A stretch of 25,662 nucleotides of DNA from a virus, in the IMG/VR virus record IMGVR_UViG_3300009068_000169, positions 1 through 25,662 of that record, one strand, 5' to 3'. The notes under the pieces were generated by a model that ran no database searches, was not told the origin of the DNA, and saw only the letters and a list, made by a program, of their open reading frames with translations. Positions 8,732-25,662 of the stretch are shown here, one piece after another. Position 1 is the first letter of the stretch, and the number at the start of each line of letters is the position of its first letter. Made by a program: the position numbers and the translations under genes.

Positions 8732-9448
8732 ATGGCAAACATAAAAGTATCTGAATTAACTGAATTAACTTCCCCTACGGCAAGTTCGGCGGATAAATTT
8801 CTACTAATTACAGATTCAAGTTCGGGCATTCCAGTGTCTAAGAAAATATCTTTAAGCACACTTGATACGTTTTTGGACGTTACAAATAGTCATGCGAATG
8901 GCGCATTCAATAAAGCAAACGGTGCATACAATCATGCAAATGCCGCATTTGTTGCTGCCAACACATTTGCATCTAGTTCAGATACCGCCAATGCTGCATT
9001 CATAAAAGCAAACGCAGGAATACTACACGCACAGTCTGCGTTCATCCAAGCAAATGCCGTATTTACACAATCAAATAACTATGTGTGGCCAACTGGTAAT
9101 GCCGCATTTATTCAAGCAAATGCTGTATTTGCACAATCAAATATCTATGTATGGCCAACAGCCAATGCAGCATTTGTTAAAGCAAACTTAGGTCTTACAC
9201 ATGCACAGTCGGCATTCATTACTGCCAATGCTTCTTTCCTTGCAGTCAATACTATTATTGATTTTGCAGCAAGTGCATTTAATAAAGCAAATGGTGCGTA
9301 TGATCAAGCAAATAATGCAAATGCGTATACCGCAGCAAATTTAGCAACCACATTGTGGGCAACATCACCGCCAGCGACAATTGATATTGCAATTGAACGG
9401 TTAGCAAATGCTGTTATAATTCTGCGTGGATACAGTCCAATACCATAA
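8732..9448 (+). CDS. Ala/Asn-heptad fibre-like virion protein between gp7 and gp8
   Basis: A 238-residue protein. Its N-terminus (IKVSELTELTSPTASSADKF, then LLITDSS, ISLSTL) is the short attachment motif seen on many phage tail fibres and related virion proteins. Residues about 50-200 are heptads of the form A-[FY]-x-x-A-N-x (AFNKANG, AYNHANA, AFVAANT, AFIKANA...), likely a long trimeric helical rod with Asn layers. The C-terminus (LWATSPPATIDIAIERLANAV) is another motif I associate with fibres of aquatic T4-like phages. It has a plausible ribosome site (TAGGA) and lies 12 bases after gp7. The exact role is unknown: a small fibre, a baseplate strut or a fibre adaptor are possible. T4 has no equivalent between genes 7 and 8. 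Confidence 0.7.
   Translation: MANIKVSELTELTSPTASSADKFLLITDSSSGIPVSKKISLSTLDTFLDVTNSHANGAFNKANGAYNHANAAFVAANTFASSSDTANAAFIKANAGILHAQSAFIQANAVFTQSNNYVWPTGNAAFIQANAVFAQSNIYVWPTANAAFVKANLGLTHAQSAFITANASFLAVNTIIDFAASAFNKANGAYDQANNANAYTAANLATTLWATSPPATIDIAIERLANAVIILRGYSPIP
9038..9169 (+). repeat. 66-bp tandem duplication in the heptad protein
   Basis: Two adjacent 66-base units (9038-9103 and 9104-9169) encode AFIQANAVFTQSNNYVWPTG and AFIQANAVFAQSNIYVWPTA, each plus NA. They differ at a few bases only. Each unit breaks the heptad rhythm with a YVWPT turn. A flanking pair, HAQSAFIQAN and HAQSAFITAN, suggests an older, larger duplication around it. Confidence 0.85.
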
Positions 9449-11030: not shown

Positions 11031-14000
11031 ATGGCACTTACTACAAATTTTAATACTGATCCTTACTACGATGATTTCGATGATAATAAAGATTTTCATC
11101 GAATTTTATACAAACCAGGATATGCAGTTCAGTCCCGTGAATTAACACAATCTCAAACAATACTTCAAGACCAAATTAAAAAATTTGGTAATCATGTTTT
11201 TACCAGTGGTTCTGTTGTAACTGGTGCCCAAATTTCAATTCAAAATACCGCTTATCTAAACATATCTTCAACATACGGCTCTTCAGATATCGGTTATATT
11301 AATTTTGATAAACAAACGATTTATAATACAGCAAATACTAAACGTGCATATGTATTAAAATCATATGATGCAATTACTGCAAACAGTGAACCAATTCAAT
11401 TTATTATTAATCAAGTTTTTGGTGATCCTTTTGTTGCAGGGGAAACAATATACACCGCAAACACTGATTCAAATTCAGTAGCATATTATGCGAATGTATC
11501 AAGCACTGGAACACCAGTTGGTAATAACTCATCGTTTTCAATTAATGACGGTGTATTTTATTATGAAGGATTCTTTGTAAAGAATCAACCACAAACTGTA
11601 GCAATCAGTAAATACGATAGGAAAGGAAATGCTCTTATTGGTTTTGTGGTATCTGAAGATATTATTGATTACACCGAAGATACTTCGTTGTTAGATCCAG
11701 CACAGAGTTCTTCTAATTTCCAAGCACCAGGTGCAGATCGTTATAAGATTACTTTAACTCTTGATAAACGCAACCTTGATAGTACAGACTTAACTAAGTT
11801 TATTGAACTTGCACAATTTAAAAATGGTCGTCCTTTATCAGTAGTAGAAACTCCAATTTATGGTCCGTTAAAAGATGAGTTGGCACGCAGAACATATGAT
11901 GAGTCTGGCGATTATATTGTTAAAAATTTCGAAATCTTTTTAGAAGATAACACCCAAAATACTGCATTTGCAAATGCCATATTCAGTCCAGGTAAAGGTT
12001 ATGTACGTGGTTATGAATATGGTACTGGCGGTGCAACATCTATCACTTTCGCAAAACCTAGAACTCTTGTAAGTGTTAATAATCAGAGAGTTAGTTCAGA
12101 CTATGGTTATTATGTTTATGCGAATGGTTTTTATGGTTCGTTTGCAACAAATCAATATGCAAATGTAGATATTCTTGCCGTAGATTCTGGAGTTGCTCGG
12201 TCATATCTGGTTAGTAGCACAAATGGAGTTACTGGAAATACAGCAAATATTTCTAATGTAACTATCGGTACAGCAAAGGTTAAACTATTATCATTTGTTT
12301 CGACTGGTGCGGATGAACGTACTGCTAACAATTACATCTATAAAATGTATTTGACTGATATCAATACCAAATCTTTGCTCAATTCTACAACTGGATATGG
12401 ATATAATGCAGCAAGTGGTTCTACCACAACAATTGTTCATCCAGATGGTTTTCCAGCAAACGTAGGTTTATATATTGGTTCGACTATTCGAATCACACAG
12501 GGTGGTCAATGGGCTGATGGACCACGAATGGTTAAAGACTATGATGCAGCATCAAGAACTATTACTGTGGATCGTCCATATTCTGTAGCAGTTAATGCTG
12601 GTTCTAGATTTATGATTGACTATAAATTTACTGATGCTGAATCTTTTATTGTGAAAACTTCTGCTGGCGAATTGCTTGCCGCAGCAAATGTTCATCCTTA
12701 TTCTAAAGATGTAACCAGTACAATACCAGGAGTAACTCCATATGTTTATTATCAACCAGCGTTTGTTTCAGATATAAAAAATGAACCTTTATTATTAAGA
12801 ATTGGTAAGAATAATGTTGCTGACAATACGATTGCTGATTTTAGTTATTCATATAAAAGACTATATCAAAGTGTGGCATTCAGTTCAGGTATTTCCACTG
12901 CATTATCTGTTGGTGTAGGTGAGTCTTTACCAACGGCATCGTCCGAAGATTTGAAACGTAAAAACTATACCATTATTCCAACATCTACAGGTCATGTCAC
13001 TTACGGTAAAGGTTATCCTGTATCATCAGCAGACTTTAGTGTTGATACGGATTCCCGTACGATAACGGTAACTGGTGGTTATAGTTTTACTGCGAACGTG
13101 TATGCAACAATTAATGCATCAAATCCAACATCGAAAACTAAAACATTCACTAAACCAAGTATGACATTGATTCCAGCAGCAGGTGGTGCTGCTAATGATA
13201 TCTTTGGCAACGGTATGGTTTACATGACAAGTGTTTATGGCCAAACTCAAATTACCGAAACTTCTGCTGATGTTGGCACTGCTACTGGTACTGTAACAAT
13301 GTCTGGTACCACTATGACTGTTGTGAGTGTAACTGCTGGAAAATTTGTTGTCGGTATGAAGATTACTGGTGTAAATTCCATCGATGGAATCGTTAATGGA
13401 ACAACAATTACCGCTTTAGGTTCTGGTGCTGGTTATGCTGGTACATATACTGTAGATCGTTCAAGTGGAACAATATCGGGTGCAGTATCAGTTACTGGTG
13501 TTAAAGAAAGTTTTATTATTAAAACTCCTGGAGTAAAACAGTATCTGTATGCTGGAGACGTACATTCAATTAATGCTGTTTTTGATTTTGAAGGACAAGC
13601 AATTAACGATACAAATTATGCTACTGTACTTGCTAATCCATCAGCAAACATAACTTCACGGTATACTTTAGATACTGGACAGAAAGATTCATACTATGAT
13701 TGGGGTGCAATCATACTCAAACAAGGACAACCAGCACCAAAAGGACCTCTGTTAATTCGTTACAATAGGTTTAGATCAACAGGTACAGGTTTCTTTAACG
13801 TTGATTCTTACACACGATTAGGTAAACAATCTGATGGTGGAAATGGATTGGATTATGGTTATATACCAGAATATGTTTCCGAAGATGGCACAACTTATAG
13901 ACTCCAAGATTATCTAGATTTCAGACCAGTCCGTAAAGATGCCGTAAATGCATTTACTTCCAAAAACTTTGTGTTTGATGTGGAAGAAGCAAGTTCTGGT

Positions 14001-17000
14001 CCTAAAATTAGTGATCCAGAACAAACTGTTCTTCTAGATTATTCTTATTATTTGCCACGTATAGACCGAGTTGTTCTTAATAGAGTTGGTCCAAAAATTG
14101 AAGTGTTGCCTGGTAATCCGTCAGAAACTCCTAGTGCTCCAGAGGAACCTGAAGGAACAATGACACTTTATACATTGTCACATCCAGCATACCTATCTGA
14201 TCCTGCGGCTACTTTAATTAAGTTTTATAAAAATAGACGCTATACGATGAAAGATATTGGAACTCTTGAAAAACGTATTGAAAATCTTGAGGTTTATCAG
14301 ACGTTGACTATTGCAGAACTTTCTGTAATGAATAAAGATGATAGGACAACTAAAGATCCACTTGGTGTATCTAGACCAAAAAATGGTATATTTGTAGATA
14401 CTTTTGTTGATAAAACTGGTTCTGCAATTACTAATGACGATTATTTGGCAGCAATAGATCACTTAGATAATTTGTGTCGTGGATCATATACCATCAAATC
14501 AACTAAATTGGCAAAAACTACAGGAACTGATATTAATGTGGTTACTAATGGTCCATTGTTAATGTTAAACTCAACAACAGAATCATTTGTAGTTGCGAAC
14601 AAAGCATCAAAACCACTTAATGTTAATCCATTTAATGTTGTTAATTTTCTTGGTACTGTTGCTATTGAACCAAATTCTGATGTTTGGAAATCCGTAGATC
14701 GTGTAGAAAAATTACAAGTTGATTTAACTGGTGGTCAAGATGCAAAAGATGCATGGAATTCAATTGAAAGTACAACATGGGGTCCATGGAAACCAAATTG
14801 GACAACATCATCTAAAACTTCTAGCGACACTCAAATCATAGGTGTTACATCTGGTAAAACTGTAACCAGAGAAAAAGGGCCAGGTGGAAATTTAAAAGAA
14901 ACAAGTTGGACGGACACCACTTATAAAACCACAAATACTACTGTTACAACTGACAAAATTACAGCAGCGAAACAAGGTGTAACTACATCAATTAAAGCAC
15001 AAGTATTAACTGCCGATTTAGGTGATAGATTATTGGATGTTAGTATTGTCACATACATGAGACCGATTGATATTTTAACACTAGCAACAAAATTTAAACC
15101 TTATACTGCATTGCATGGTCGTTTTGATAATGTTAAAATTGATGATAAGATTATGGGTTTAAATCGGTTCACTATAACTGGCGACTCTGTAGCACTAGAA
15201 ACCAAAATTGGAAATCAAGAAAGAGTTAATTTATTTGATAGCGTTTCTGGTGCTGAAGTTGGTGCAGGACTGGCCGCTTTAACTTCAGGTAAAAATTTCT
15301 GGCTTGTAAATTTTGTACCAAGTTCTACATATGGTACTTGGAATACTACCAATTTAACTCAAACTGGAATTAGGGTTGTGGGTACAGTGTCGGGAAAGAC
15401 ATACACATGTAAATCTTGGGCACACTATCAAGGTCGACCATCCGCAGCATCAACTACAACAATTACCCTTTCACCTGCTGCTGGTGGTTCAAGTGGAATT
15501 GCTGATTATGTCGGTCAACTTTTAACCATTGTTGATGGTCCAGGTAAAGGTTCAGTAAACAGAATTTCTGCTTACGATGCAGCAACACGTATTGCTACCA
15601 TTGAGGGTTCGTGGCTTGTATTGCCAACCACAGATTCTCAATACTCAATAGGTTTATTGGAAACTGATGAGTATGGTTCCGCTGCCGCTGTAACTAAAAT
15701 TCCAGGCAATACTTTCCGCACAGGTGAAAAGATTATTCGTCTAATTGATGATGAGTTTAATAATACTGAAAATTCCAGAACAAATGGTGAAACAAGTTTC
15801 TTTGCACAAGGCGTGATTACAAAAAATCAAGAAACTTCAATATCAGTATTTACACCTAAAATTGCAGAGAAAAAAGATGTGACGGAATCGTTTACCGTAT
15901 CAAAACAAGATGTTCAATCTAAAAGTTCCATAAGCATAGGACATAATGTAGATGGTGTGCGTTATTTCGATCCTCTTGCACAAACATTTTTGGTAAATCA
16001 AAAAGATTATCCACAGGGTGTAATTATTGATAGTATCCGAGTTTGTTTTAGAACCAAAGATGTAGCAATTCCAGTCACATGTCAAATTCGTCCTGTTATT
16101 AATGGATACCCCTCTTCATCAATAACATATCCATATGCTGAAGTTACATTGACACCAGATAAGGTACAACTTACAAAAACTCCAAATCTTTCGGATTCGG
16201 CAAAATATACTGAATTCAAATTTGATGTTCCTGTTCACTTACAACCTGGAGAGCATTCGTTTGTTCTGTTATCGAACAGTAATGGATATGAAACATATGT
16301 TGGTGAGATTGGCGCAACTGATATTTACACCAATACTAAAATTTCTGAACAACCGTACACTGGTTCATTATTCTTATCTCAAAATGGATCAACTTGGACC
16401 GCAGATCAAACTGCTGACATTATGTTTAGCATCCAGAAAAAAGTATTTTCTACAGATGTTGGATATGGTTTCTTTGAAGTTGATTTGAGTGACATTTCTA
16501 CTGTGGGTACCGCATCAATTTCAGGAACCACAATGACTGTTAGTAGTCAATCTTTTGGTGGAAATGATTCTGATATTGCAAAATTTAAATCATGGACAAA
16601 TGGTGGTGCTGCGTTTGCAGTTGGTCAAACAATCCGCGGAACTGGAATCACAACAGGAACAACAATTACTGCGTTAGGTACTGGAAGTGGCAGCACAGGT
16701 ACTTACACAGTTAGTCCAAGTCAAACTGTGTCAAGTACACCAATTTATGCTGGAAATGATTCTTATTTTGACTTGATGCATTTTATGACAAGTGAGGCAA
16801 AACCAGATCAAACTGGAACTCTATATGAGTTTATATCTGAAGGCGATAGTGGTTCTCAACATCCTTATATTAGAATTATACCAGATATTGATTATAGAAT
16901 GACTGATGGTTATGGTCGCAGAAAATTAAATTTTGCAACAGGAAATCCAACGTTTAAAATGCGTATAGCATTAAATACTATAAATCGTGATGTTTCGCCA

Positions 17001-17969
17001 ATGATTGATATCAATCGTTTAAATATATTAACAATTAAAAATAGAATTAATAATTTACCATTGTTGGATTCTAATCTTTCTATTACGGGTGGAACTGGTT
17101 ACACTCATTTAGCAATTGATGTTTCTGGTGGTGGTGGTTCTGGAGCAAATGCTAAACCAACATTAACTGCAGGTGTTTTAACTGGTATAACGTTTGATAG
17201 TATAGGGAGTGGTTATACCACATCCCCAACATTAACTCTTCGTAGACCTGCCAATGCTGTTGGTACTGCTGCAATTGCTTCAACAACATTGACAGTTAGT
17301 TCGGTAGATTCTGGTGTTTATGCAGTTGGTCAAATTCTTAGTGGTTCTAGCGTTACTCCAGGAACAACAATTACTGCGTTAGGAACTGGAACTGGTGGTG
17401 TCGGTACGTACACTGTTAGTCCAAGTGGAACAACATCAAGCACAACAATTACTGGCACATATGGTGGTTCTGGTGCAATTGTGCAATATAATGGTGAAGA
17501 TTGGTCAACTGGTGGTAATTCTGAGATTCGACACATCACTAAGAAAATTGCATTAGCAACTGGATTTGATGCGGGTGATATTCGTGTCTATATGGATGTG
17601 TATAAACCACCAAGTTCAGGATTCTTGGTGTATTATAAAGCACTATCTACTTCAGATACCGCTTCATTCGAAAGTCTGAAATGGAATTTGATGACACAAT
17701 TGGATAATAATTTGGTAAACTTTATTTCAGAAGATGAAGGAGATTTCCGTGAGTTTGCGTTTGCACCAGGAACTAAAGGAACTGCTGATAACAATATTGC
17801 ATATACTTCTAACGGTTCAACGTATAAAGACTTTGCTGTTTTTGCAATTAAGGTAGTCATGTATGGAACTACTACCGTAGATGTTCCTAAATTCACGAAT
17901 TTGAGAGTTGTGGCATTACCATCAGCAACAATAACATCATCATACACTACAAGTAAAATTGTAGCATAA
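11031..17969 (+). CDS. Giant DUF4815-type tail/baseplate structural protein
   Basis: A 2312-residue protein. The N-terminus (residues 1-57: [46 protein letters not shown]) is the DUF4815-type head of large tail proteins in T4-like aquatic phages. Further conserved-looking landmarks are DFRPV at 963-967, [17 protein letters not shown] at 1071-1087, [15 protein letters not shown] near 1344, [10 protein letters not shown] at 1646-1655 and [20 protein letters not shown] from 2165. Three ISGTTMTV modules (residues about 754-823, 1827-1906, 2078-2143) and one GxGYTTSP repeat sit between these landmarks, so they look like insertions. It follows gp8 with a ribosome site (AAAGG) and occupies the place of T4 genes 9-10. 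A role as the outer baseplate protein or fibre attachment point is inference. Confidence 0.8.
13290..13500 (+). repeat. ISGTTMTV module, copy 4 (DUF4815 protein)
   Basis: [44 protein letters not shown]. It lies between a SADVGTAT segment and a [10 protein letters not shown] segment of the large protein. Confidence 0.8.
16509..16749 (+). repeat. ISGTTMTV module, copy 5 (DUF4815 protein)
   Basis: [12 protein letters not shown], an extra Asp/Ser/Lys-rich loop of about 20 residues, [38 protein letters not shown]. It interrupts the region between [14 protein letters not shown] and [15 protein letters not shown]. It shares a 25-base exact match (16654-16678) with copy 6. Confidence 0.82.
17262..17460 (+). 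repeat. ISGTTMTV module, copy 6 (DUF4815 protein)
   Basis: [57 protein letters not shown]. It follows a [15 protein letters not shown] repeat unit and precedes [11 protein letters not shown], which looks like the rest of that unit. It contains the 25-base match at 17359-17383. Confidence 0.82.
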
Positions 17970-17979
17970 TGGGAAAATC

Positions 17980-18216
17980 ATGTACGTACCTATAAAAGAT
18001 AAAAAAGATTTTGTTAGAGATATATCTAATAAAGCAATTCTAAATACGAACATGGAAGAATTGAAAACGTATTATGCTGAGAGAGATTTGGCAATAAAAA
18101 GAAATGAGGAAAAGTTAATGATGGAACAGAAAGTAAATAAACTAGAGGAAGATATTACGGACATCAAACAGATGCTCCGTGAACTTGTGCAAATGAGAAA
18201 CCCAAATGGCAATTAA
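17980..18216 (+). CDS. Small coiled-coil protein at the head of the fibre locus
   Basis: A 78-residue, highly charged protein. The N-terminus (MYVPIKDKKDFVRDISNKAI, LNTN) is a pattern I recall from small proteins encoded in tail regions of T4-like aquatic phages. Residues about 25-70 are Lys/Glu/Leu-rich with heptad-like spacing (VNKLEEDITDIKQMLRELV), so a helical coiled coil is likely. No membrane segment or signal is seen. It begins 10 bases after the DUF4815 gene behind a GGGAAA ribosome site and overlaps the next gene by 11 bases. Its size and helical nature recall the T4 fibre chaperone gp57A (79 residues), but I see no sequence similarity, so a chaperone role is only a guess; a small virion protein is equally possible. 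Confidence 0.75.
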   Translation: MYVPIKDKKDFVRDISNKAILNTNMEELKTYYAERDLAIKRNEEKLMMEQKVNKLEEDITDIKQMLRELVQMRNPNGN

Positions 18217-18643
18217 TCAAGTATCCACATCAAACACATTCCAAGAATGGTTAACTACCACTGGTCTTTTAATTGCAACCGCAAATGCATTGACTGATCA
18301 TTCTCCAGGACAAGTATTTACTTCTAATACAATTTTAGAAATCACTGGTTCTGATGCTCGGTTCAATGTTCGTACAAGTGGCAACATTAATACCTTTGGT
18401 GCAAATACTGCCAACATTGCAAACATATCGATTGTTGGTGCTAGTGGTATACCAGGACATGCCAGCAGAATCACTGTACCAGGTAACGTATCGGTTAGTC
18501 AAAATATTACCACAGGCAATCTAACTATGACTGGTGTTCTTGATGGACCCACTAGACTTATTGGTGGTGCAAACAATGCAATTTATCAGACAATTACCAA
18601 TGCTGTCGATACGGCAATTGCTATGTCCATCATTATCAATTGA
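18206..18643 (+). CDS. Fibre-like virion protein, 145 residues
   Basis: The N-terminus (MAINQVSTSNTFQEWLTTTG, then ATANALTD) is a recurrent head motif of fibre-like proteins in T4-like aquatic phages. The rest is short beta-strands rich in Asn/Thr/Ile (FTSNTILEI, NINTFGANTANIANISIVG, VPGNVSVSQNITTGNLTMTG), as in beta-helical or beta-prism fibre shafts. There is no long coiled coil. The start lies inside the last codons of the preceding gene (11-base overlap), which implies coupled expression. It ends in TGA just before a promoter-like gap. I cannot name a receptor-binding domain, and it is short for a full fibre, so it may be an adaptor or a reduced fibre. Confidence 0.72.
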   Translation: MAINQVSTSNTFQEWLTTTGLLIATANALTDHSPGQVFTSNTILEITGSDARFNVRTSGNINTFGANTANIANISIVGASGIPGHASRITVPGNVSVSQNITTGNLTMTGVLDGPTRLIGGANNAIYQTITNAVDTAIAMSIIIN

Positions 18644-18679: not shown

Positions 18680-19006
18680 ATGGCTAACACGTTCAAAAAT
18701 CAATTTGCTTCTGCTATCGGTGTAACTCCAGTAGCAGTTTACACCAATCCTGCTTTAACACAAGCAACTGTTATAGGGATGAGTATAGCAAATTTATTGG
18801 CAGTTCCTATTTCCGTAAGTGTGTATGTAACTTCTGCCGCCACGAATTACTATATGATTAAAAATGCTACGATTGCTCCTGGTGGTGCGTTGGTGCCAAT
18901 TGGTGGTGATCAAAAATTAGTTCTTGAGGCAAATGATGTGCTCTATGTGGTTTCTGATACTGCGGTATCTGCTGATGCAATCACTTCTGTCTTGGAGATT
19001 ACCTAA
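18680..19006 (+). CDS. Small beta-sandwich-like virion protein, paralogue 1
   Basis: A 108-residue protein, predicted all-beta. The layout is an N-terminal strand, TQATVIGMSIAN, VSVYVTSAATNYYMIKNATI, APGGALVPIGGDQKLVLEAN (DVLYVVSD) and a final strand ending SVLEIT. The same layout occurs in the 115-residue protein at 19701 and the 127-residue protein at 23519, so the window has three paralogues. Proteins of this shape are frequent in fibre regions of aquatic phages, but I know of no established function; a fibre-associated or decoration role is inference. It has a strong ribosome site (AGGGG) and a late promoter directly upstream, and its TAA overlaps the ATG of the next gene. Confidence 0.75.
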   Translation: MANTFKNQFASAIGVTPVAVYTNPALTQATVIGMSIANLLAVPISVSVYVTSAATNYYMIKNATIAPGGALVPIGGDQKLVLEANDVLYVVSDTAVSADAITSVLEIT

Positions 19007-19680
19007 TGTCATATATTGGCAATAGACCAGAAATAACATCATTCACAGTTGATTATCAATTATTTAGTGGTACCAGTTCTTGCACATCGTTTGTATTAGC
19101 AAGGACTGCGGAATCATCTAGAGCAATTGAGGTTGTTCTTAATAAACAACAACTAACTCCAGATAGAGATTACACAGTAACTTCTGCAAATTCGTCAGTA
19201 AATTTTTCAGTTGCACCAAACACTGCCACTAATAACATTGTTGTTACGTATCGTGCTCCAAACAGTTACACCTTCAATTCTGTTTTTGAAGATCAATTAA
19301 CTGCATTGAGTGTTGGTGAAAGTGCCATACAAACGGATGCAATTACATCAAGTAAAGTTTTAAACAGAGCAATTATTGGCACTAAATTAGGATTAGGTTC
19401 TGTCTCAGGTAACAATATAGCACCAACATCAATTGGTGGTAATAATATTGTCGTAAATTCAATCAGTGGTAATACTCTTCACACAGGTGCAATTTCTGGC
19501 AATAATCTAACTGTCACCTCTATTGGTGGTAATAATATTGTTGTAGGTTCATTAAGTGGTAATACTCTTCAAACTAATTCTATAAGTGGTAATAACTTAG
19601 GGTTGAGTGCTGTTAGTGCAAACAATCTGTCGAATGATGCTGCAAATTTTGATGATGCGTTTTTACTTGGTGGAATGTAA
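19006..19680 (+). CDS. YIGN-type fibre protein with decapeptide-repeat shaft
   Basis: A 224-residue protein. Residues 1-95 form the widespread phage fibre N-terminal domain: MSYIGNRPEI, a beta-rich part with SFVLARTAESSRAIEVVLN, DRDYTVTSANSSVNFSVAPN and NNIVVTYRAP. Residues about 100-130 (ALSVGESAIQTDAITSSKVL) lead into eight decapeptide repeats of the form S-x-S/G-G-N-N/T-x-x-x-x at 132-211, likely a beta-helix or beta-roll shaft. The end (FDDAFLLGGM) is short, with no large receptor-binding head. It starts by TAATG overlap with the preceding gene. The head should attach it to the virion or to a partner fibre, and the missing tip suggests that a following protein supplies the adhesin; that is inference. 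Confidence 0.8.
   Translation: MSYIGNRPEITSFTVDYQLFSGTSSCTSFVLARTAESSRAIEVVLNKQQLTPDRDYTVTSANSSVNFSVAPNTATNNIVVTYRAPNSYTFNSVFEDQLTALSVGESAIQTDAITSSKVLNRAIIGTKLGLGSVSGNNIAPTSIGGNNIVVNSISGNTLHTGAISGNNLTVTSIGGNNIVVGSLSGNTLQTNSISGNNLGLSAVSANNLSNDAANFDDAFLLGGM
19399..19638 (+). repeat. 30-bp repeats with a 90-bp higher-order period
   Basis: Eight 30-base units encode decapeptides such as SVSGNNIAPT, SIGGNNIVVN, SISGNTLHTG, AISGNNLTVT, SIGGNNIVVG and SLSGNTLQTN. Every third unit is most alike: the SIGGNNIVV units (19429 and 19519) and the SGNTL units (19459 and 19549) are each exactly 90 bases apart, showing an ancestral 90-base duplication. Confidence 0.9.
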
Positions 19681-19700
19681 AAAATTAAGGGAAATAAAAA

Positions 19701-20048
19701 ATGGCAAGAGCATATAAAATTTTAGGTCAATCGATTCCAAATTCCGCAACGATAACGGATTTTGTTACATTGTACACCGTACCATCATCAACACAGGCAG
19801 TAGTTTCATCTTTAGTGATTTCTAGTTTGGCCACTTCTGCGGGAACTTCTGCTGCTGTGTATGTTGCAGTTCAAGATGCTGCCGCTTCGGTAACAAACAA
19901 ACACTACCTATGTTATGGAGTTAATGTACCTTCAGCAGATACAGTGACGATGACTTTAGGTATTACACTTGCATCAGGTTCTGTCGTTAAGATCGCAGCA
20001 AATACAGTATCTTCATCATTCACATTGTTTGGCACTGAAATAACATAA
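19701..20048 (+). CDS. Small beta-sandwich-like virion protein, paralogue 2
   Basis: A 115-residue all-beta protein of the same layout as those at 18680 and 23519: FVTLYTVPSSTQAVVSSLVI, then AAVYVAVQDA, NKHYLCYGVNVPSADTVTMT, LGITLASGSVVKIAA and a final FTLFGTEIT strand. A ribosome site (AAGGGA) precedes the start by 9 bases. It lies between the YIGN fibre protein and the first glycine-rich protein, the same relative place that paralogue 3 takes in the second cassette. Function is unknown. Its constant place beside the adhesin-like genes suggests a structural partner. Confidence 0.75.
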   Translation: MARAYKILGQSIPNSATITDFVTLYTVPSSTQAVVSSLVISSLATSAGTSAAVYVAVQDAAASVTNKHYLCYGVNVPSADTVTMTLGITLASGSVVKIAANTVSSSFTLFGTEIT

Positions 20049-20054
20049 TATAAA

Positions 20055-22781
20055 ATGACAATACGAAGAGTTAGTACGACTGGCAATAGAATTAAATTAT
20101 TAAGTGGCTTCCATAAAGTTGGTAGTTATTTAACTCGTCGGAAATCCATACTTGGCGTAGTCAGAGGCGAACAAGAAAGATTCGTCCTCGAATATCTCGT
20201 TGTTGGGGGCGGTGGTGGTGGTGGTTCTGGCGGTGGCGGTGGCGGTGGTGGAGGCGGTGTTTGGATTGGATCACTTGATGGTATAACTACAGGTGGAAAT
20301 GTATCAATTGGATTAACTGGTGCTAGTGTATTCTCGATGGGCATCGGTGCAGTAACAGGTAACAATCAAGATGCCCGCGGCAATGATGGTAATGCTACCA
20401 CATTTGCAATGTCTGGTCCTACGGGATTCTCTCTTACTGCATTAGGTGGTGGAGGTGGAGGATTCGAATGGGATCCACCAAACGCAACTATGGCAAATCG
20501 TGCTCCAGAATCTGTTGCTGGTGGAGGTGGAGGAGGCCTTCGTGATGAGTCTACACGATCCAGATCAAATCAAGGTGGACAAGGTGGCATGGCTAAAGTC
20601 ACTGGTAACGATGGTAATCCAAATCGCACAAATACTGAATCAAATGGACGAGGTGGTAATGACGGGTCCGAATCAACATGTATATCAGGTTCAATTTCGG
20701 GTGATGTATTGACGTTAGATGGACCAAGAAGTAATTTTCCAGACGGTAATTTTCAAGTCGGAATGACATTACAGGGTGGACCATATTCAAATCCAACAGG
20801 TTGGCTTCAAGGAACAGTAATAACTGCCGCATTAGTTACACCTTCATTTTCGCCTGGCGTTGGTGGCGCTGGCACATATCGCATATCACCTGCACCACAA
20901 ACAGTAACTCCTAGAGAAATAAAAGGTAAAATGAATCCACGTGGTTATGGTGGAGGTGGCGGCGGTGGTTCCGGTTATACTCCTGGACCACAGGGTGACG
21001 GTGGAGAAGGTGGTGGTGGTTATACTTCATCTATACTTGGATTTAATAGAGAGTATGCTGCTGGCGGTGGCGGTGGTTCGAGTTCACCAACCAATGGTCC
21101 TAAAGGCAATCCGAGTAATGGTGCCGGTTATGGGGTTGTAAAAGATGGCGGCGATGAAATATATCAAGCAGGACAAAGTCCTGGAGACAATACAGTATAT
21201 GATGGCAATGGCAATCTTTCTGGCCCAGGTCAAGGACCAACTGGACCTAAAGGTGCATTTCCACTTCCACCATTTGGTGGAAAAGCAGGTTATGGCCCTC
21301 GTGAATCTGGTCCTTATCCCACTGGTGGTTATCGATATCCTGGAGTTGGATCGCAAAAAAATGCTTTAAATAATCGTGGCGGTGGCGGCGGTGGTGCTTG
21401 GAATGGTTCATCAAGACGTGATTGGGGACAACTCGGACCAAATGGTGAAGGTGGTCCTTTTATTTTGAACAGTGGAGCAGAACCAACAATGTTGTGGAAT
21501 TCAGATGCAAATCCTCCACCACATGCATATGCTCCACTTTGGCCAACAGACACAGGCACAAGAAATTGGCCTGGTCGTGCTAATTACAGACAAGGTGGTC
21601 GTGGTGGTTCTGGAATTGTCATAATTAGATATCCTAGTGTGTTTGGTAATACAACAACTACAGGAACTCCAATTAAAACAAAAATTGATGCTGGTTGGCT
21701 TGTGCATCAATTCGTAGATTCTGGTAGTATGACTTTAGATTTTTCAACAGCATCTCGTAGAGCATTAACATTGACTGCTGGACCTGCATATGGAGATCCT
21801 CCTGCTGCTACTGTTTTGTCTTATCTTTATATTGGAGGTGGCGGTGCTGGTGGACAAGGTGCTGGTGATGCTTACTTTGCAGGTGGCGGTGGCGGTGGCG
21901 GTGGTGCTTTTAAAACAGGCACACTCAGTCTTGTCAATGGTGCAGGTTCATACACTGTAGTTATTGGTGCAGGTGGTGCGTCTGGAACAAAAGGTTCAAA
22001 TACTGGGGTATTCAATACAACTACTGGAAGTTTATTCGGTGGCAGTAGTTGGGCAGGAGGTGGTGGTTATGGTGCAGGTCAAGCAATTTCTCCAGGAATA
22101 AATGTCGTAGGTGGTGTTGGTGGTGATGGATCAAGTGGCGGTGGAGGTATGGGTGCTTGGCCTTCTGGTTATACGAATGCAGGTGGTGCAGGTGGTGGAT
22201 CACCCGGAACTGCTGGTGGTTATTCTGGCGGTGGTCCAGGGTTTACAAATCCTGGAGGACAAGTATACTTTTCTGGTGGTGGAGGTGGCGGAGGTGCAGG
22301 ATATATAGGCACCAATGGTGCTCAAATATGGGATGGTGGTGCAGGTGGACAAGGAGTCGCATCTTCAATATCTGGTAGTGCAGTCACTTATGCTGGCGGT
22401 GGCGGTGGCGGTGGAATGACAGTACACTTTGGCACCGCACCAACTAGAGTATCTGGTGGTGAAGCAGGTATCGGAGGCACATTTGGAGGCCCATCAGGAT
22501 CACCTGGCGGTGCAGCAAATGGTGGTGGCAATGGTGTTGGTTTTGGAGGTCAATCTGGTACAGCAGGCACTGGTGGCGGTGGCGGTGGCGGTGCTTCTGC
22601 ATTTAGTGGTGCTGGTGGTGGCAATGGAGGTTCTGGAGTTGTTATATACAGTTACCCAAATGAATATGCTAATGTGGAAAATCTTGTTGGTGGAACATAT
22701 TCAGAGGTTAACGGCCAGAGAATACTAAGATTTACAGGTTCTGGATCATTTGCTCTAGGACAACCATTTGACGGTGGTTAA
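20055..22781 (+). CDS. Glycine-rich adhesin-like fibre protein, two Gly-rich units
   Basis: A 908-residue protein. After a basic N-terminal segment (residues 1-45) come two units of the phage glycine-rich domain, each opening with a hydrophobic strand plus poly-Gly and closing with GGSG-hydrophobic-YP. Unit 1 runs from YLVVGGGG (47) to GGSGIVIIRYP (517-527), unit 2 from YLYIGGGG (590) to GGSGVVIYSYP (858-868). Between them lies a beta-strand linker (GWLVHQFVDSGSMTLDF), and the C-terminus (NGQRILRFTGSGSFAL) repeats that linker type as if a third unit began. Residues about 212-291 hold a diverged ISGTTMTV-like module. Poly-Gly runs of this sort form polyglycine-II bundles in the T-even adhesin gp38 of Salmonella phage S16; a receptor-binding role here is inference by analogy. 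Confidence 0.8.
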   Translation: MTIRRVSTTGNRIKLLSGFHKVGSYLTRRKSILGVVRGEQERFVLEYLVVGGGGGGGSGGGGGGGGGGVWIGSLDGITTGGNVSIGLTGASVFSMGIGAVTGNNQDARGNDGNATTFAMSGPTGFSLTALGGGGGGFEWDPPNATMANRAPESVAGGGGGGLRDESTRSRSNQGGQGGMAKVTGNDGNPNRTNTESNGRGGNDGSESTCISGSISGDVLTLDGPRSNFPDGNFQVGMTLQGGPYSNPTGWLQGTVITAALVTPSFSPGVGGAGTYRISPAPQTVTPREIKGKMNPRGYGGGGGGGSGYTPGPQGDGGEGGGGYTSSILGFNREYAAGGGGGSSSPTNGPKGNPSNGAGYGVVKDGGDEIYQAGQSPGDNTVYDGNGNLSGPGQGPTGPKGAFPLPPFGGKAGYGPRESGPYPTGGYRYPGVGSQKNALNNRGGGGGGAWNGSSRRDWGQLGPNGEGGPFILNSGAEPTMLWNSDANPPPHAYAPLWPTDTGTRNWPGRANYRQGGRGGSGIVIIRYPSVFGNTTTTGTPIKTKIDAGWLVHQFVDSGSMTLDFSTASRRALTLTAGPAYGDPPAATVLSYLYIGGGGAGGQGAGDAYFAGGGGGGGGAFKTGTLSLVNGAGSYTVVIGAGGASGTKGSNTGVFNTTTGSLFGGSSWAGGGGYGAGQAISPGINVVGGVGGDGSSGGGGMGAWPSGYTNAGGAGGGSPGTAGGYSGGGPGFTNPGGQVYFSGGGGGGGAGYIGTNGAQIWDGGAGGQGVASSISGSAVTYAGGGGGGGMTVHFGTAPTRVSGGEAGIGGTFGGPSGSPGGAANGGGNGVGFGGQSGTAGTGGGGGGGASAFSGAGGGNGGSGVVIYSYPNEYANVENLVGGTYSEVNGQRILRFTGSGSFALGQPFDGG
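20205..20258 (+). repeat. GGN trinucleotide tract coding poly-Gly
   Basis: Eighteen codons (residues 51-68) of which all but one (a Ser) are Gly, written as GGT/GGC/GGA. Slippage by multiples of three would change Gly number without shifting frame. Confidence 0.9.
20688..20928 (+). repeat. Diverged ISGTTMTV-like module in the glycine-rich protein
   Basis: GSISGDVLTLDGP, FQVGMTLQGGP, GTVITAALV, GVGGAGTYRISPAPQTVTP. It retains the order of the module (ISG-x-x-L-T, VGMTL-x-G, GT-x-IT-A, G-x-GTY-x-I-S-P) but shares little DNA identity with the others. Confidence 0.68.
21884..22593 (+). repeat. Three identical in-frame 20-nt GGY repeats
   Basis: The same 20-base string (TGGCGGTGGCGGTGGCGGTG) occurs at 21884-21903, 22394-22413 and 22574-22593. 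The spacings (510 and 180 bases) are multiples of three and all copies are in the same reading frame, so recombination between them would remove 170 or 60 residues without a frameshift. Confidence 0.88.
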
Positions 22782-22790
22782 AAAAACGAA

Positions 22791-22798
22791 CATAAATA
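22791..22798 (+). promoter_or_regulatory. Probable late promoter box CATAAATA
   Basis: CATAAATA fits the NATAAATA form of the T4-type late box and lies in a 49-base gap after the glycine-rich gene. Transcription would start near 22804, giving a leader of about 27 bases that includes a strong ribosome site before the ATG at 22831. It shares ATAAATATT with the box at 18649. Confidence 0.5.
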
Positions 22799-22818
22799 TT
22801 GAGTAATAACTTTTTTAT

Positions 22819-22823
22819 AGGAG
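22819..22823 (+). promoter_or_regulatory. Strong Shine-Dalgarno AGGAG
   Basis: AGGAG lies 7 bases before the ATG at 22831. It is the best ribosome binding site in the window, where most genes have weak or no such site, and it fixes this start codon. Confidence 0.75.
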
Positions 22824-22830
22824 TGATTGA

Positions 22831-23259
22831 ATGAACAACACAGAAATTGAATATGCACATTTTCTAATTGGTAACAACAACAAATTAGTTTGTGGTATTG
22901 ACACAGCAATTAAAGCATTACGCCCAACAGGACGATATGATATGTCTGCATCAGGTGGACATTTTGAGTTTACACGTTGGGAAGATGAAGCAAATACAGT
23001 AGCACCAACAAGAGCAGAAATTATGGCCGAGTTGGAGTATCAAAATAAGTTTATTGAACATCATCAATATTTTTTAGACCGTGCATCAAACTATCCTGAT
23101 ATTACGGTCTTAATTAATTTGTTATGGGAAGCAATGGATCAAAGTAAGATTCCAGGTAAAGGAACAGAATTCTACGATACAGTCAAAGAAATCAATGATA
23201 AGTATCCTAAACCCGAAGGTAATGCACCAGTAAGACCAAGTTACGAACAGGAAGAATAA
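22831..23259 (+). CDS. Fibre-locus accessory protein, 142 residues
   Basis: An acidic soluble protein of unknown function. The first half has a pattern I recall from small proteins beside tail-fibre genes in many phages: AIKALRPTGRYDMSASGGHF, then FTRWEDEAN, followed by APTRAEIMAELEYQ. The second half has YPDITVLINLLWEAMDQSK, PGKGTEFYDTVKEINDKYPK, resembling the 'YP..xQLDxLW...VKxxYPKP' ends of those proteins. There is no membrane segment. It stands between the two fibre cassettes with its own likely promoter and the strongest ribosome site here, and the next gene begins directly after its TAA. A fibre chaperone or assembly factor is a reasonable inference from such contexts; a structural role is not excluded. 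Confidence 0.7.
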   Translation: MNNTEIEYAHFLIGNNNKLVCGIDTAIKALRPTGRYDMSASGGHFEFTRWEDEANTVAPTRAEIMAELEYQNKFIEHHQYFLDRASNYPDITVLINLLWEAMDQSKIPGKGTEFYDTVKEINDKYPKPEGNAPVRPSYEQEE

Positions 23260-23505
23260 ATGGCATACATTGGCAACCCAGTATATTCAACACCACATAA
23301 AGTCGATGTGTTTAACGGCACTGGATCACAGGCAATATTTCAATTGTCTCGTGCTCCGTATGGCGTTGCTGCAATTGCTGTATATGTTGATGGTCTCTAT
23401 AAAACACCTACCATCACTTGGACAGTTAGTGGTGATGTATTAACTTTTATCAATGCTCCTGCTCTTGGAAATTATAATGTTGTTGTGCATCATTTAGGAT
23501 ATTAA
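23260..23505 (+). CDS. Minimal YIGN-type fibre N-terminal domain protein
   Basis: An 81-residue protein made only of the fibre N-terminal domain: MAYIGNPVYSTPHKVDVFNG, TGSQAIFQLSRAPYGVAAIA, VYVDGLYK, then WTVSGDVLTFINAPALGNYN and VVVHHLGY. The domain matches residues 1-95 of the 224-residue protein at 19006 in order and spacing, but the repeat shaft is missing and the gene ends cleanly with TAA. It begins right after the 142-residue gene (no gap). It is either a free-standing adaptor that works with a separately encoded partner or a truncated former fibre; an intact ribosome site for the following gene and no remnant downstream favour the former. Confidence 0.78.
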   Translation: MAYIGNPVYSTPHKVDVFNGTGSQAIFQLSRAPYGVAAIAVYVDGLYKTPTITWTVSGDVLTFINAPALGNYNVVVHHLGY

Positions 23506-23518
23506 CTAAGGAAAATAA

Positions 23519-23902
23519 ATGGCAGCACCCAACATAGTCGGAGTAACTACGATTCGTGGCAAATCAAATGTCGCTAACCTTACTACGACCTCAACATCTA
23601 TTGTTGTTAATGATGTCAACTCAGGTAAAGTGTTTAAAATTAATACCATCATGATTTCAAATGTTGATGGTACAAATGCTGGTAATGTCTCAGTTGAATT
23701 GTTTAAATTTGGCGCACAGAATGTGTCCACAGGTTCAGGTAATGCAACATATGGTATTGCCAATTCTGTGACTGTACCTGCCAAATCATCTTTAGATGTT
23801 ATGTCTAAATCACTTTACCTTGAAGAAGGTGATCATCTCAAAGCAAAAGCGGATGCAAATAATCGTCTGCACCTTATTACATCGTTTGAAGAGATAAGTT
23901 AA
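23519..23902 (+). CDS. Small beta-sandwich-like virion protein, paralogue 3
   Basis: A 127-residue all-beta protein with the layout of those at 18680 and 19701: VFKINTIMISNVDGTNAGNV, SVELFKFG, YGIANSVTVPAKSSLDVMSK, SLYLEEGDHLKAKADANN and a final LHLITSFEEIS. It is slightly longer and has a more charged end (LEEGDHLKAKAD). A ribosome site (AAGGA) precedes the start. The stop overlaps the ATG of the following glycine-rich gene (TAATG), so the two are translationally coupled, which supports them as partners. Function is unknown. Confidence 0.75.
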   Translation: MAAPNIVGVTTIRGKSNVANLTTTSTSIVVNDVNSGKVFKINTIMISNVDGTNAGNVSVELFKFGAQNVSTGSGNATYGIANSVTVPAKSSLDVMSKSLYLEEGDHLKAKADANNRLHLITSFEEIS

Positions 23903-25662
23903 TGGCAAAAAGTTTCAACGGTGGTATTATTGGAACAAGAAATTTGACCACTGGTGGTATTACTGGTGCTGCTACAGGCATATATTCACTTAATGAAGCA
24001 CAAATATTTAAACTTGCTGGTTTATGGCCTCAAGAAATCAACACAAGTTCTGCTTTCATAGTTCAAGTATTTCAAGGTTCCACTACATGGACACCGCCAT
24101 CTGGCGTATTAACCGTCGATTATCTTGTTGTTGGTGGCGGTGGCGGCGGTGGTGGTCGTATTGGCGGTGGAGGTGGTAGTGGTGGTGTTGTTCAGGGAAC
24201 TTCATTACCTGTAACTCCAGCAACATCTTATACAATTGCTATTGGTTCTGGAGGTGCTGGAGGTGCGGCTTCACCTGGCGGAACTGGCGCAAACGGAACA
24301 AACTCTGGAATATTTGTCACAAGTAGTGGTGCAACATTAACTTCTTGGTCAAATGGTGGCGGTGGTGGTGGTGGCACAGATGCTGGTAATGGCATGTCTG
24401 GTGGTTCTGGCGGTGGAGGTGGTAGATTTTCTCCAGGCGGTCTTGGTGGTTTAGGAACTCCAGGTCAAGGAAATAATGGTGGACGAGGTGCACCTAATGC
24501 TGGTCCTTCTTCTCCTTTTGATCGCTCTGGTGGAGGTGGTGGTGCTGGTGGTGCTGGTGCTACAGGAAATGATTCTGGTAATGGTGGTATAGGTATATTT
24601 TCATCGATAACAGGTTCTAATACAGGTTATGCGGGCGGTGGTGGTGGAAGTGTTTATGGTCCAGGAACACCACAACCATTTGGTCAAGGTGGCAATGGAA
24701 ATCCTATGTTTGGTGCTGGTAATGGTTTGTCAACACCAGCAGCATCAGTAGGAGGTTCTGCAAATACAAATCAAGGAAGTGGTGGAGGTGGTGGTGGATA
24801 TACCGATCCTGGTGGTACAGCATATGGAGGTGGTGCTGGCGGTTCTGGTATCATCGTTCTAAAATATACGTTTGCTACGCCAAGTGCAGTCTTAATATTT
24901 GGAAATACAAGTACATTCATTGTACCTGATGGTACAACAACAATCGATTATCTTATTATTGCTGGCGGTGGAGGAGGTGGTTTTCAACACGGCGGTGGCG
25001 GAGGTGCTGGTGGTGTGCTTCAAGGTACAGGATATCCAGTGGGCCCAGGTCAAGCATATACTTGTATTATTGGCGCAGGTGGTCCAGGTCCTCCTGGTGG
25101 TCCAAACGGTAGTAATGAAAGAGGAATTAATGGTTCGAACACAATATTTGCTGCTTCAAACTCTGCATGGACTTTAGCAAACACTTCTAATTCATATTAT
25201 GCAAATAGCAATTCAGGAATATTTTTTGCTTTCGGTGGCGGCGGTGGTGGTTCTTACAATGGTGCAGGTGGTACTTCAGTAGGTAAAGATGGTGGTTCGG
25301 GTGGCGGTGGAGCACCTGATGGAAGTCCTGGTGCAGGCGGTGCAGGAGTGCCGGGTCAAGGATTTGCTGGTGGCACAGGATTCTCTTTTTGGACTGGCAA
25401 TGGTGGCGGAGGTGGTGGTGCAGGTGGTGCAGGGAAGTCTGGTAGCGCAACAACACCCGCTGAAGGATTAACAAGTGGTAATGGAGGTATAGGAATATTT
25501 ACTACAATCACAGGTTCAAATACTGCATTTGCTGGTGGCGGTGGTGGAGGTGGTGTAGATTTCTCAGCACCATATTCTGGTGATCCAAGACAACCTGCGT
25601 ATCATACAAGAGCAGGTTCTGGTGGACCTGGAGGTGGCGGCGGTGGTGGTGATGGCACTAAT
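23902..25662 (+). CDS. Glycine-rich adhesin-like fibre protein, 3'-truncated
   Basis: The frame is open from ATG 23902 to the window end (587 residues, no stop). The N-terminus (MAKSFNGGIIGTRNLTTGGI, IYSLNEAQIFKLAGLWP) is the usual head of phage glycine-rich fibre proteins. Then comes FIVQVFQGSTTWTPPSGV and a first Gly-rich unit from YLVVGGGG (residue 74) to GGSGIIVLKY (313-322), a linker LIFGNTSTFIVPDGTTTIDY and a second unit from YLII (350) that continues past the window. The two units are homologous along their length: PVTPATSYTIAIGSGGAG with PVGPGQAYTCIIGAGGPG, and GNGGIGIFSSITGSNT with GNGGIGIFTTITGSNT. It is the counterpart, in the second cassette, of the protein at 20055. A receptor-binding role is inferred from poly-Gly adhesins such as phage S16 gp38. 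Confidence 0.8.
   Translation, partial: MAKSFNGGIIGTRNLTTGGITGAATGIYSLNEAQIFKLAGLWPQEINTSSAFIVQVFQGSTTWTPPSGVLTVDYLVVGGGGGGGGRIGGGGGSGGVVQGTSLPVTPATSYTIAIGSGGAGGAASPGGTGANGTNSGIFVTSSGATLTSWSNGGGGGGGTDAGNGMSGGSGGGGGRFSPGGLGGLGTPGQGNNGGRGAPNAGPSSPFDRSGGGGGAGGAGATGNDSGNGGIGIFSSITGSNTGYAGGGGGSVYGPGTPQPFGQGGNGNPMFGAGNGLSTPAASVGGSANTNQGSGGGGGGYTDPGGTAYGGGAGGSGIIVLKYTFATPSAVLIFGNTSTFIVPDGTTTIDYLIIAGGGGGGFQHGGGGGAGGVLQGTGYPVGPGQAYTCIIGAGGPGPPGGPNGSNERGINGSNTIFAASNSAWTLANTSNSYYANSNSGIFFAFGGGGGGSYNGAGGTSVGKDGGSGGGGAPDGSPGAGGAGVPGQGFAGGTGFSFWTGNGGGGGGAGGAGKSGSATTPAEGLTSGNGGIGIFTTITGSNTAFAGGGGGGGVDFSAPYSGDPRQPAYHTRAGSGGPGGGGGGGDGTN
24118..25662 (+). repeat. Tandem duplicated Gly-rich unit in the last gene
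   Basis: Unit 1 (from about 24118) and unit 2 (from about 24946) share landmarks at matching places: the D-Y-L-V/I start (828 bases apart) and the GNGGIGIF...ITGSNT block at 24577 and 25477 (900 bases apart). The difference in spacing shows that unit 2 gained about 24 residues or unit 1 lost them. Unit 2 is cut by the window end. Confidence 0.8.

Follow-up and report, generated by a model that had tools for sequence, protein, structure and literature searches.

The viral contig IMGVR_UViG_3300009068_000169, a complete IMG/VR contig of 25,662 bases (hereinafter the window), probably carries the tail-fibre (host-recognition) locus of a T4-like aquatic myovirus, in which small beta-proteins would act as couplers between separately encoded fibre segments and so give two branches with different glycine-rich (Gly-rich) tips. 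The evidence that carries this explanation is a match on both sides of the beta-protein genes: the protein encoded before such a gene mostly ends in a short hydrophobic tag set by the class (A, B or C) of the beta-protein, and the similarity among the starts of the proteins encoded after it is explained by the same class. The coupler with two-sided matching tags is a new result beyond an earlier interpretation of the letters alone (hereinafter the sequence-only reading), which had recognized the order YIGN protein, small beta-protein, Gly-rich adhesin twice between 19006 and 25662. All six open reading frames of this double order are present. Missing from that reading were a third beta-protein (18680-19006), its upstream gene (18206-18643) and a 142-amino-acid (aa) gene (22831-23259), and the third beta-protein makes the module larger than had been supposed. 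The segments and putative couplers are as follows:

18206..18643, plus strand: ATT, proximal shaft-like protein, 145 aa; C-terminus AVDTAIAMSIIIN, a degenerate class C tag
18680..19006, plus strand: beta-protein, 108 aa, putative class C coupler; overlaps the next start codon by 1 base
19006..19680, plus strand: YIGN1, 224 aa (MSYIGN); N-terminal YIGN domain, repetitive shaft, C-terminal class A tag NFDDAFLLGGM
19701..20048, plus strand: beta-protein, 115 aa, putative class A coupler; MARAYKILGQ...
20055..22781, plus strand: Gly-rich adhesin 1 (Gly1), 908 aa, 30% Gly; class A type N-terminus MTIRRVSTTGNRIKLL; PHROG 2295
23260..23505, plus strand: YIGN2, 81 aa (MAYIGN); YIGN domain alone, without shaft and without class B tag
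23519..23902, plus strand: beta-protein, 127 aa (beta127), putative class B coupler; MAAPNIVGV...; predicted jelly-roll; overlaps the next start codon by 1 base
23902..25662+, plus strand: Gly-rich adhesin 2 (Gly2), 587 aa shown, 34% Gly; cut by the contig end; class B type N-terminus MAKSFNGGIIGTRN; Gly_rich_2 domains

The beta-proteins form one family

Although pairwise BLASTP among the three beta-proteins of the window gives no match, iterative profiles started from each of them converge on ~231 proteins that include all three, and profile-profile comparison with hhalign joins class B to C (E=1e-14), A to C (E=1e-10) and A to B (E=1e-5). We take the three to be remote homologues within one family of ~105-135 aa, and reject the alternative of unrelated folds, the outcome on which the sequence-only reading would have fallen. 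For beta127, AlphaFold2 predicts a confident all-beta fold, a jelly-roll (predicted local distance difference test score, pLDDT, 90.9), whose closest counterparts among solved structures are weakly matching jelly-rolls such as nucleoplasmin, phage tail-needle knobs and TNF-like proteins (best E=9e-4), with a weak match to a lectin as well. The same fold is common to many predicted viral proteins, several of them named as virion proteins, and searches by sequence found no useful solved relative of the family. Homologues in S-TIM5, HTVC010P, HMO-2011 and Rhizobium phages are (putative) virion structural proteins by annotation alone. Three loci (L065, L067 and L068) encode 225-aa class B members with an inserted domain of ~100 aa that looks cupredoxin-like by eye (GHPFWIQTSSG...YYxCQYH).

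C-terminal tags upstream of the beta-proteins

The upstream tag reads FDDAFLFGGM or FLLMGG before class A, GKAIAMAIVFG before class B, and AIAFAIALG or AFTIAFS before class C. The discovery set holds 28, 58 and 56 matching-class pairs for A, B and C, respectively, with a single cross-class case, a loose pattern hit (L026), and with 18 tags among the 1902 pairs whose second gene encodes no beta-protein. We then fixed the tag patterns and applied them to freshly fetched loci, counting an upstream protein only if its C-terminal 40 residues were previously unseen; these loci are phylogenetically linked to the discovery set, while their upstream sequences are new. Wherever a tagged protein precedes a classed beta-protein in this new set, the classes agree (133/133, made up of 30 A, 50 B and 53 C, with 0 cross-class), and 13 tags stand before non-beta genes in 1256 such pairs. 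A further 56 classed beta-proteins follow proteins that carry no tag by the fixed patterns, many of which end in near variants (PFLFLGI, MLMLSGM). Loci with two or more classes agree in 195/195 cases, a count that is not deduplicated.

Tag B occurs on 16 unrelated body groups, and the codons of the tags differ synonymously while the amino acids stay, which indicates that the protein and not the DNA is conserved. Shine-Dalgarno sequences might yield such tags as by-products (FGG can read TTTGGAGGA), but we reject this as the principal origin, given that all 12 residues of the tag persist with varying codons. The same pattern is seen in cultured phages of Roseobacter, Rhizobium, Yersinia, Synechococcus and Pelagibacter, for example CRP-9, RHph_TM30, GN1 and S-TIM5 for class C and HTVC033P and DSL-LC04 for class B. 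Phage Bellamy has, in addition, three couplers that belong to none of the classes A-C and go with different tags, and more tag/beta pairs of this kind occur in L023-L043 (for instance L025, L035 and L040), with TTYDNEVLVWMGV before MANLIPKSFY and TRNAALIIMDIGA before MAVGDRVESR; the latter pairs suggest further coupler classes. Among the literature matches listed for the tag strings, which are short, there is no phage paper.

N-terminal tags downstream of the beta-proteins

Proteins encoded after class C beta-proteins start with MxYIGN or a near variant, many of those after class B carry NGGIIG-like motifs, and those after class A have a basic, Ser-rich start. The downstream tag matches the class at all three sites of the window (MSYIGN after C, MTIRRVSTTGNR after A and FNGGIIG after B), and the upstream tag is clean before 19701, degenerate before 18680 and absent before 23519. 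In a permutation test restricted to proteins of unrelated body, with each body group represented once, class accounts for the similarity of both the last 14 aa upstream and the first 25 aa downstream (0/2000 permutations each). The upstream control stretch shows nothing (1027/2000) and the downstream one a slight effect (32/2000), with a nearest-neighbour accuracy at chance (0.43) as against 0.82 for the first 25 residues.

This bears on the name 'fibre head' that the sequence-only reading gave to the YIGN proteins. As the MxYIGN signature also stands on unrelated bodies directly after class C beta-proteins, it resembles a proximal docking tag, and YIGN is probably not a fibre head. The second YIGN protein does lack a shaft, as had been said, the 81-aa copy being the N-terminal domain only. 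Part of a K1-specific capsule depolymerase (PDB 9k4a, residues 126-163) is weakly similar in sequence to the YIGN domain at 23260-23505 (E=8e-6).

A model of the fibre and the points against it

The fibre would be built from separately translated segments in gene order, each jelly-roll coupler holding the C-terminal tag of the preceding segment and the N-terminal tag of the following one, and the coupler class would have to match both tags. The proximal piece (18206) would join the YIGN N-termini through coupler C (18680). Two branches with different Gly-rich tips would result, one running from YIGN1 through coupler A to adhesin 1 and the other from YIGN2 through coupler B to adhesin 2. Display of both tips by one virion is plausible, and we infer the physical side of the model, that is binding, presence in the virion, order in space and two tips per particle, with fair confidence. 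The 142-aa protein, a possible assembly chaperone for an adhesin by its position, may assist folding of an adhesin.

In an alternative design, the shaft itself ends in a covalently attached tip domain; all shafts of this kind are untagged, and a Gly gene comes directly next in 18/21. Together with natural fusions of shaft and beta-protein (S-SKS1, 368 aa; L140, 220 aa), they suggest that the position between shaft and tip is the one taken by the beta-protein.

Several observations weigh against the coupler model. Only 1/3 of the upstream proteins in the window has a clean tag, the 81-aa YIGN protein being untagged and the tag of the 18206 product degenerate; the relatives' counterpart of the latter ends in AIDSSIAFAIALG, and many relatives' YIGN2 carry a class B tag (for example GSGIVGSIIFGG). 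Since YIGN2 of the window has no tag, coupler B may attach either to the YIGN domain directly or to a different shaft with a class B tag. The rule is broken mainly by class B beta-proteins in a setting without a tag (L069, L073-L077, L085, L087 and L089), with a gene of 81-98 aa on one side and one of 140-176 aa (LYSYKG...LPxxIRLSDGxTRTD) on the other. In L121, L122, L123 and L126, a beta-protein comes after a Gly gene and not after a shaft; in these loci a tip-domain shaft and a Gly gene precede beta B, which is thus without an adjacent tag. Conversely, tagged shafts without a following beta-protein exist (L120, 432 aa; L130, 1815 aa). A leave-one-body-group-out test with position-specific scoring matrices was right in only 147/189 cases (33/40 group-class units), the misses being due mainly to the no-tag setting and to class A and B YIGN shafts with few or unlike bodies for training. 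The linkage could also partly reflect joint inheritance, and the proposed coupler-tag complexes rest on the matching of sequences.

The tagged 432-aa protein of L120 lies elsewhere in that contig and ends in GKAIAMSIVFGG; use of a beta127-type coupler in trans by such a shaft is speculation. It is encoded at L120:4912-6210 (minus strand), and this shaft and that of L130, both of which end in the class B tag GKAIAMSIVFGG, are followed by a 216-aa or 167-aa protein; the 216-aa protein of L120 is similar to the proteins with a covalent tip domain and has a Gly gene after it. A different arrangement is found in L121, L122 and L126, where one class A-tagged shaft is followed by two successive class A couplers (in L122 and L126 both couplers have their own Gly-rich gene), as if alternative tips competed for one socket.

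Alternative roles of the beta-proteins

Fibre chaperone genes often adjoin their fibre gene, and the beta-proteins might be assembly chaperones or trimerisation factors for the shaft C-terminus that stay outside the finished joint, with the tags as chaperone recognition sites. The beta-sandwich domain of Pam3 gp25 binds a fibre end (PMC9608196), and a separate C-terminal domain can stand in for the beta-protein; both speak for this role. We nevertheless regard it as unlikely, since it leaves the class match of the downstream N-terminus unexplained, distinct chaperone-like genes already follow the adhesins, shaft-beta fusions exist and, as far as annotation alone goes, homologues are (putative) virion structural proteins.

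Lectin-like receptor-binding knobs at the fibre end, with the Gly-rich proteins as separate adhesins, would agree with the weak resemblance of the fold to trimeric knobs, to TNF-like proteins and to a lectin, with the 'putative lectin' annotation of some homologues, and with phiPsal1, in which a beta-protein follows a shaft and no Gly gene is annotated adjacent. The pattern of conservation speaks against this: beta B is the most conserved fibre gene of the lineage (median identity 78%) and the Gly tips are the least conserved (35-52%), whereas receptor-binding ends usually behave the other way round. Because the N-terminal tag matching of the next gene is also left unexplained, we think a knob role improbable.

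Lower still we place the idea that tag, beta gene and N-terminal tag form one mobile recombination block, in which the tags bind nothing and are kept as homology arms or by hitchhiking. The tags do lie at gene borders, where exchange would need homology, and the parts are clearly mosaic, but the synonymous codon changes under constant amino acids point to selection on the protein rather than on DNA homology, and the tags persist on unrelated bodies and in phages of different hosts.

Conservation of the two modules

An ordinary tandem duplication of a fibre cassette with later divergence, as the sequence-only reading proposed, would give the three gene kinds in the same order twice and homologous YIGN domains (35% identity and a pairwise E=5e-8 between YIGN1 and YIGN2), but is hardly tenable, since in none of 23 genomes of the lineage are the slots closest relatives (in 45/45 cases a YIGN domain is closest to one from the same slot in a different genome) and the couplers of the two slots belong to different old beta subfamilies that each occur in unrelated phages too. 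Within one genome the two YIGN domains share 36% identity, no more than across genomes. The slots are thus old paralogues, which rules out a recent tandem duplication.

The order itself is conserved, as the sequence-only reading needed it to be: 18 contigs, the window and 17 distinct IMG/VR contigs, have both YIGN slots and both couplers and keep the two modules in the same order, and chance gene order is thereby rejected. The relatives share the series 78-aa gene, ATT, beta C, YIGN1, beta A, Gly1, 142-aa gene, YIGN2, beta B, Gly2 and often Gly3. The closest of them, L120, is 91% identical in DNA over the shared 6.67 kb and also has an 81-aa YIGN2; it completes Gly2 at 899 aa and has a further class A beta and Gly pair downstream.

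The proposal that head, partner and adhesin are co-inherited and swapped as units survives for some pairs and fails for others. Distances within a module are correlated for YIGN1 and beta A (0.61) and for beta B and Gly2 (0.63), but little for beta A and Gly1 (0.06) or YIGN2 and beta B (0.24). By these comparisons the cassette is conserved as an order of parts and not as a block, tags and coupler making up the apparent constant interface. As the conserved linkage is C-terminal tag, beta-protein and N-terminal tag, the exchange boundaries appear to lie inside the flanking genes.

Gly-rich tips and comparison with known systems

The two adhesins differ at the N-terminus, as had been noted from the sequence (MTIRRVSTTGN in Gly1 and MAKSFNGGIIG in Gly2, both encoded), and pairwise BLASTP between them gives no useful match. 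Both match PHROG 2295 (E=1.4e-21 and 5e-62, respectively), which is all that places Gly1 among the Gly-rich adhesins. Gly2 also matches Pfam PF21722 (Gly_rich_2, E=9e-38), and no useful solved relative of it was found by sequence. AlphaFold2 models its residues 1-335 with a pLDDT of 84; by itself, the stretch with the NGGIIG tag (residues 1-23) is of low confidence, as expected of a docking peptide. The best PDB fold matches are the fibre of cyanophage Pam3 (7ypx, E=3e-6) and then the Gly-rich protein of the Mycobacteriophage Bxb1 tail tip (9d93, E=7e-6), the latter a siphovirus tail tip. As modelled, Gly2 fits the Gly-rich (polyglycine/brush) phage adhesins of the Pam3 gp24/S16 gp38 type, with repeated Gly-rich motifs and a compact tip domain.

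Pam3 gp24 and its chaperone gp25 (PDB 7ypx; PMC9608196) resemble the present locus in a Gly-rich tip of similar predicted architecture and a chaperone-like gene near the adhesin. In contrast, gp24 is a single polypeptide with its own docking helix and TNF-like domain, and no separate jelly-roll coupler or class-specific tags are described for it (PMC9608196). The S16/T2-type gp38 on gp37 (PDB 6F45) is likewise a Gly-rich adhesin and a separate protein at the fibre end, but is held on gp37 by its own short helices on a hydrophobic platform (PMC9608196), with no small intermediary; 6F45 is absent from the best 50 Foldseek matches of Gly2. The T4 fibre gp34-gp35-gp36-gp37 with its gp35 knee (PMC3004832) offers the parallel of segments from neighbouring genes joined by a connector protein. 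Whereas gp35 is one 372-aa monomer used once, the putative couplers form a family of ~105-135 aa with repeated use and tag-matched classes. No gp35 family is found among the Pfam and PHROG matches of the three beta-proteins, and no T4 fibre chain among the best 50 PDB fold matches. That the beta-proteins physically join two fibre segments as gp35 does is what we infer from the two-sided tag matching.

Genomic setting

All clear genes of the window lie on the plus strand, and T4-like baseplate genes fill its first 18 kb (hub/lysozyme, PAAR, gp25, gp6, a gp8-like gene and that of a 2312-aa DUF4815 protein), with the fibre genes directly downstream. In marine T4-like phages a hypervariable host recognition cluster is described at this place, in the VrlC-to-gp14 position (PMC7029224), and the 2312-aa protein is probably the VrlC-like protein after which such clusters begin. 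The cluster of pelagimyophages and cyanomyophages shares with the window its hypervariable fibre genes downstream of a large baseplate protein; it differs in that the sections of that source on the cluster describe a variable region, without beta couplers or matching tags (PMC7029224). The remaining genes of the region are:

11031..17969, plus strand: baseplate-associated protein, 2312 aa; PHROG 358, DUF4815
17980..18216, plus strand: virion structural protein, 78 aa; PHROG 473; conserved first gene of the fibre region
22831..23259, plus strand: 142-aa protein between the two modules; PHROG 9114 (unknown function); conserved

Within the baseplate part, a 238-aa gene (8732-9448) has no PHROG match, and its DNA (~8890-9230) resembles many places in the region of a 1703-aa fibre-like gene of L120 (70-90% over 60-230 bases), the likeness consisting of shared repeats.

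Implications for fibre evolution

Modular exchange of fibre tips is well known; how swapped parts stay compatible is understood for little more than a few model phages. One answer, to which we give about even credence, would be a socket-and-plug code, in which widespread small jelly-roll couplers of at least three classes join fibre segments non-covalently via class-specific C-terminal and N-terminal tags. The fibre genes of cyanophages, pelagiphages and their relatives are mostly annotated as hypothetical, and a two-sided tag rule would reveal from the sequence which segment carries which tip and predicts concrete binding pairs. If the code is real, replacing genes could be enough for phages of many hosts to swap tips or stack them, with no redesign of the fibre, and two coupler-tip pairs per socket, as in L122, where a class A-tagged YIGN1 is followed by beta A, Gly, beta A and Gly, would allow alternative tips.

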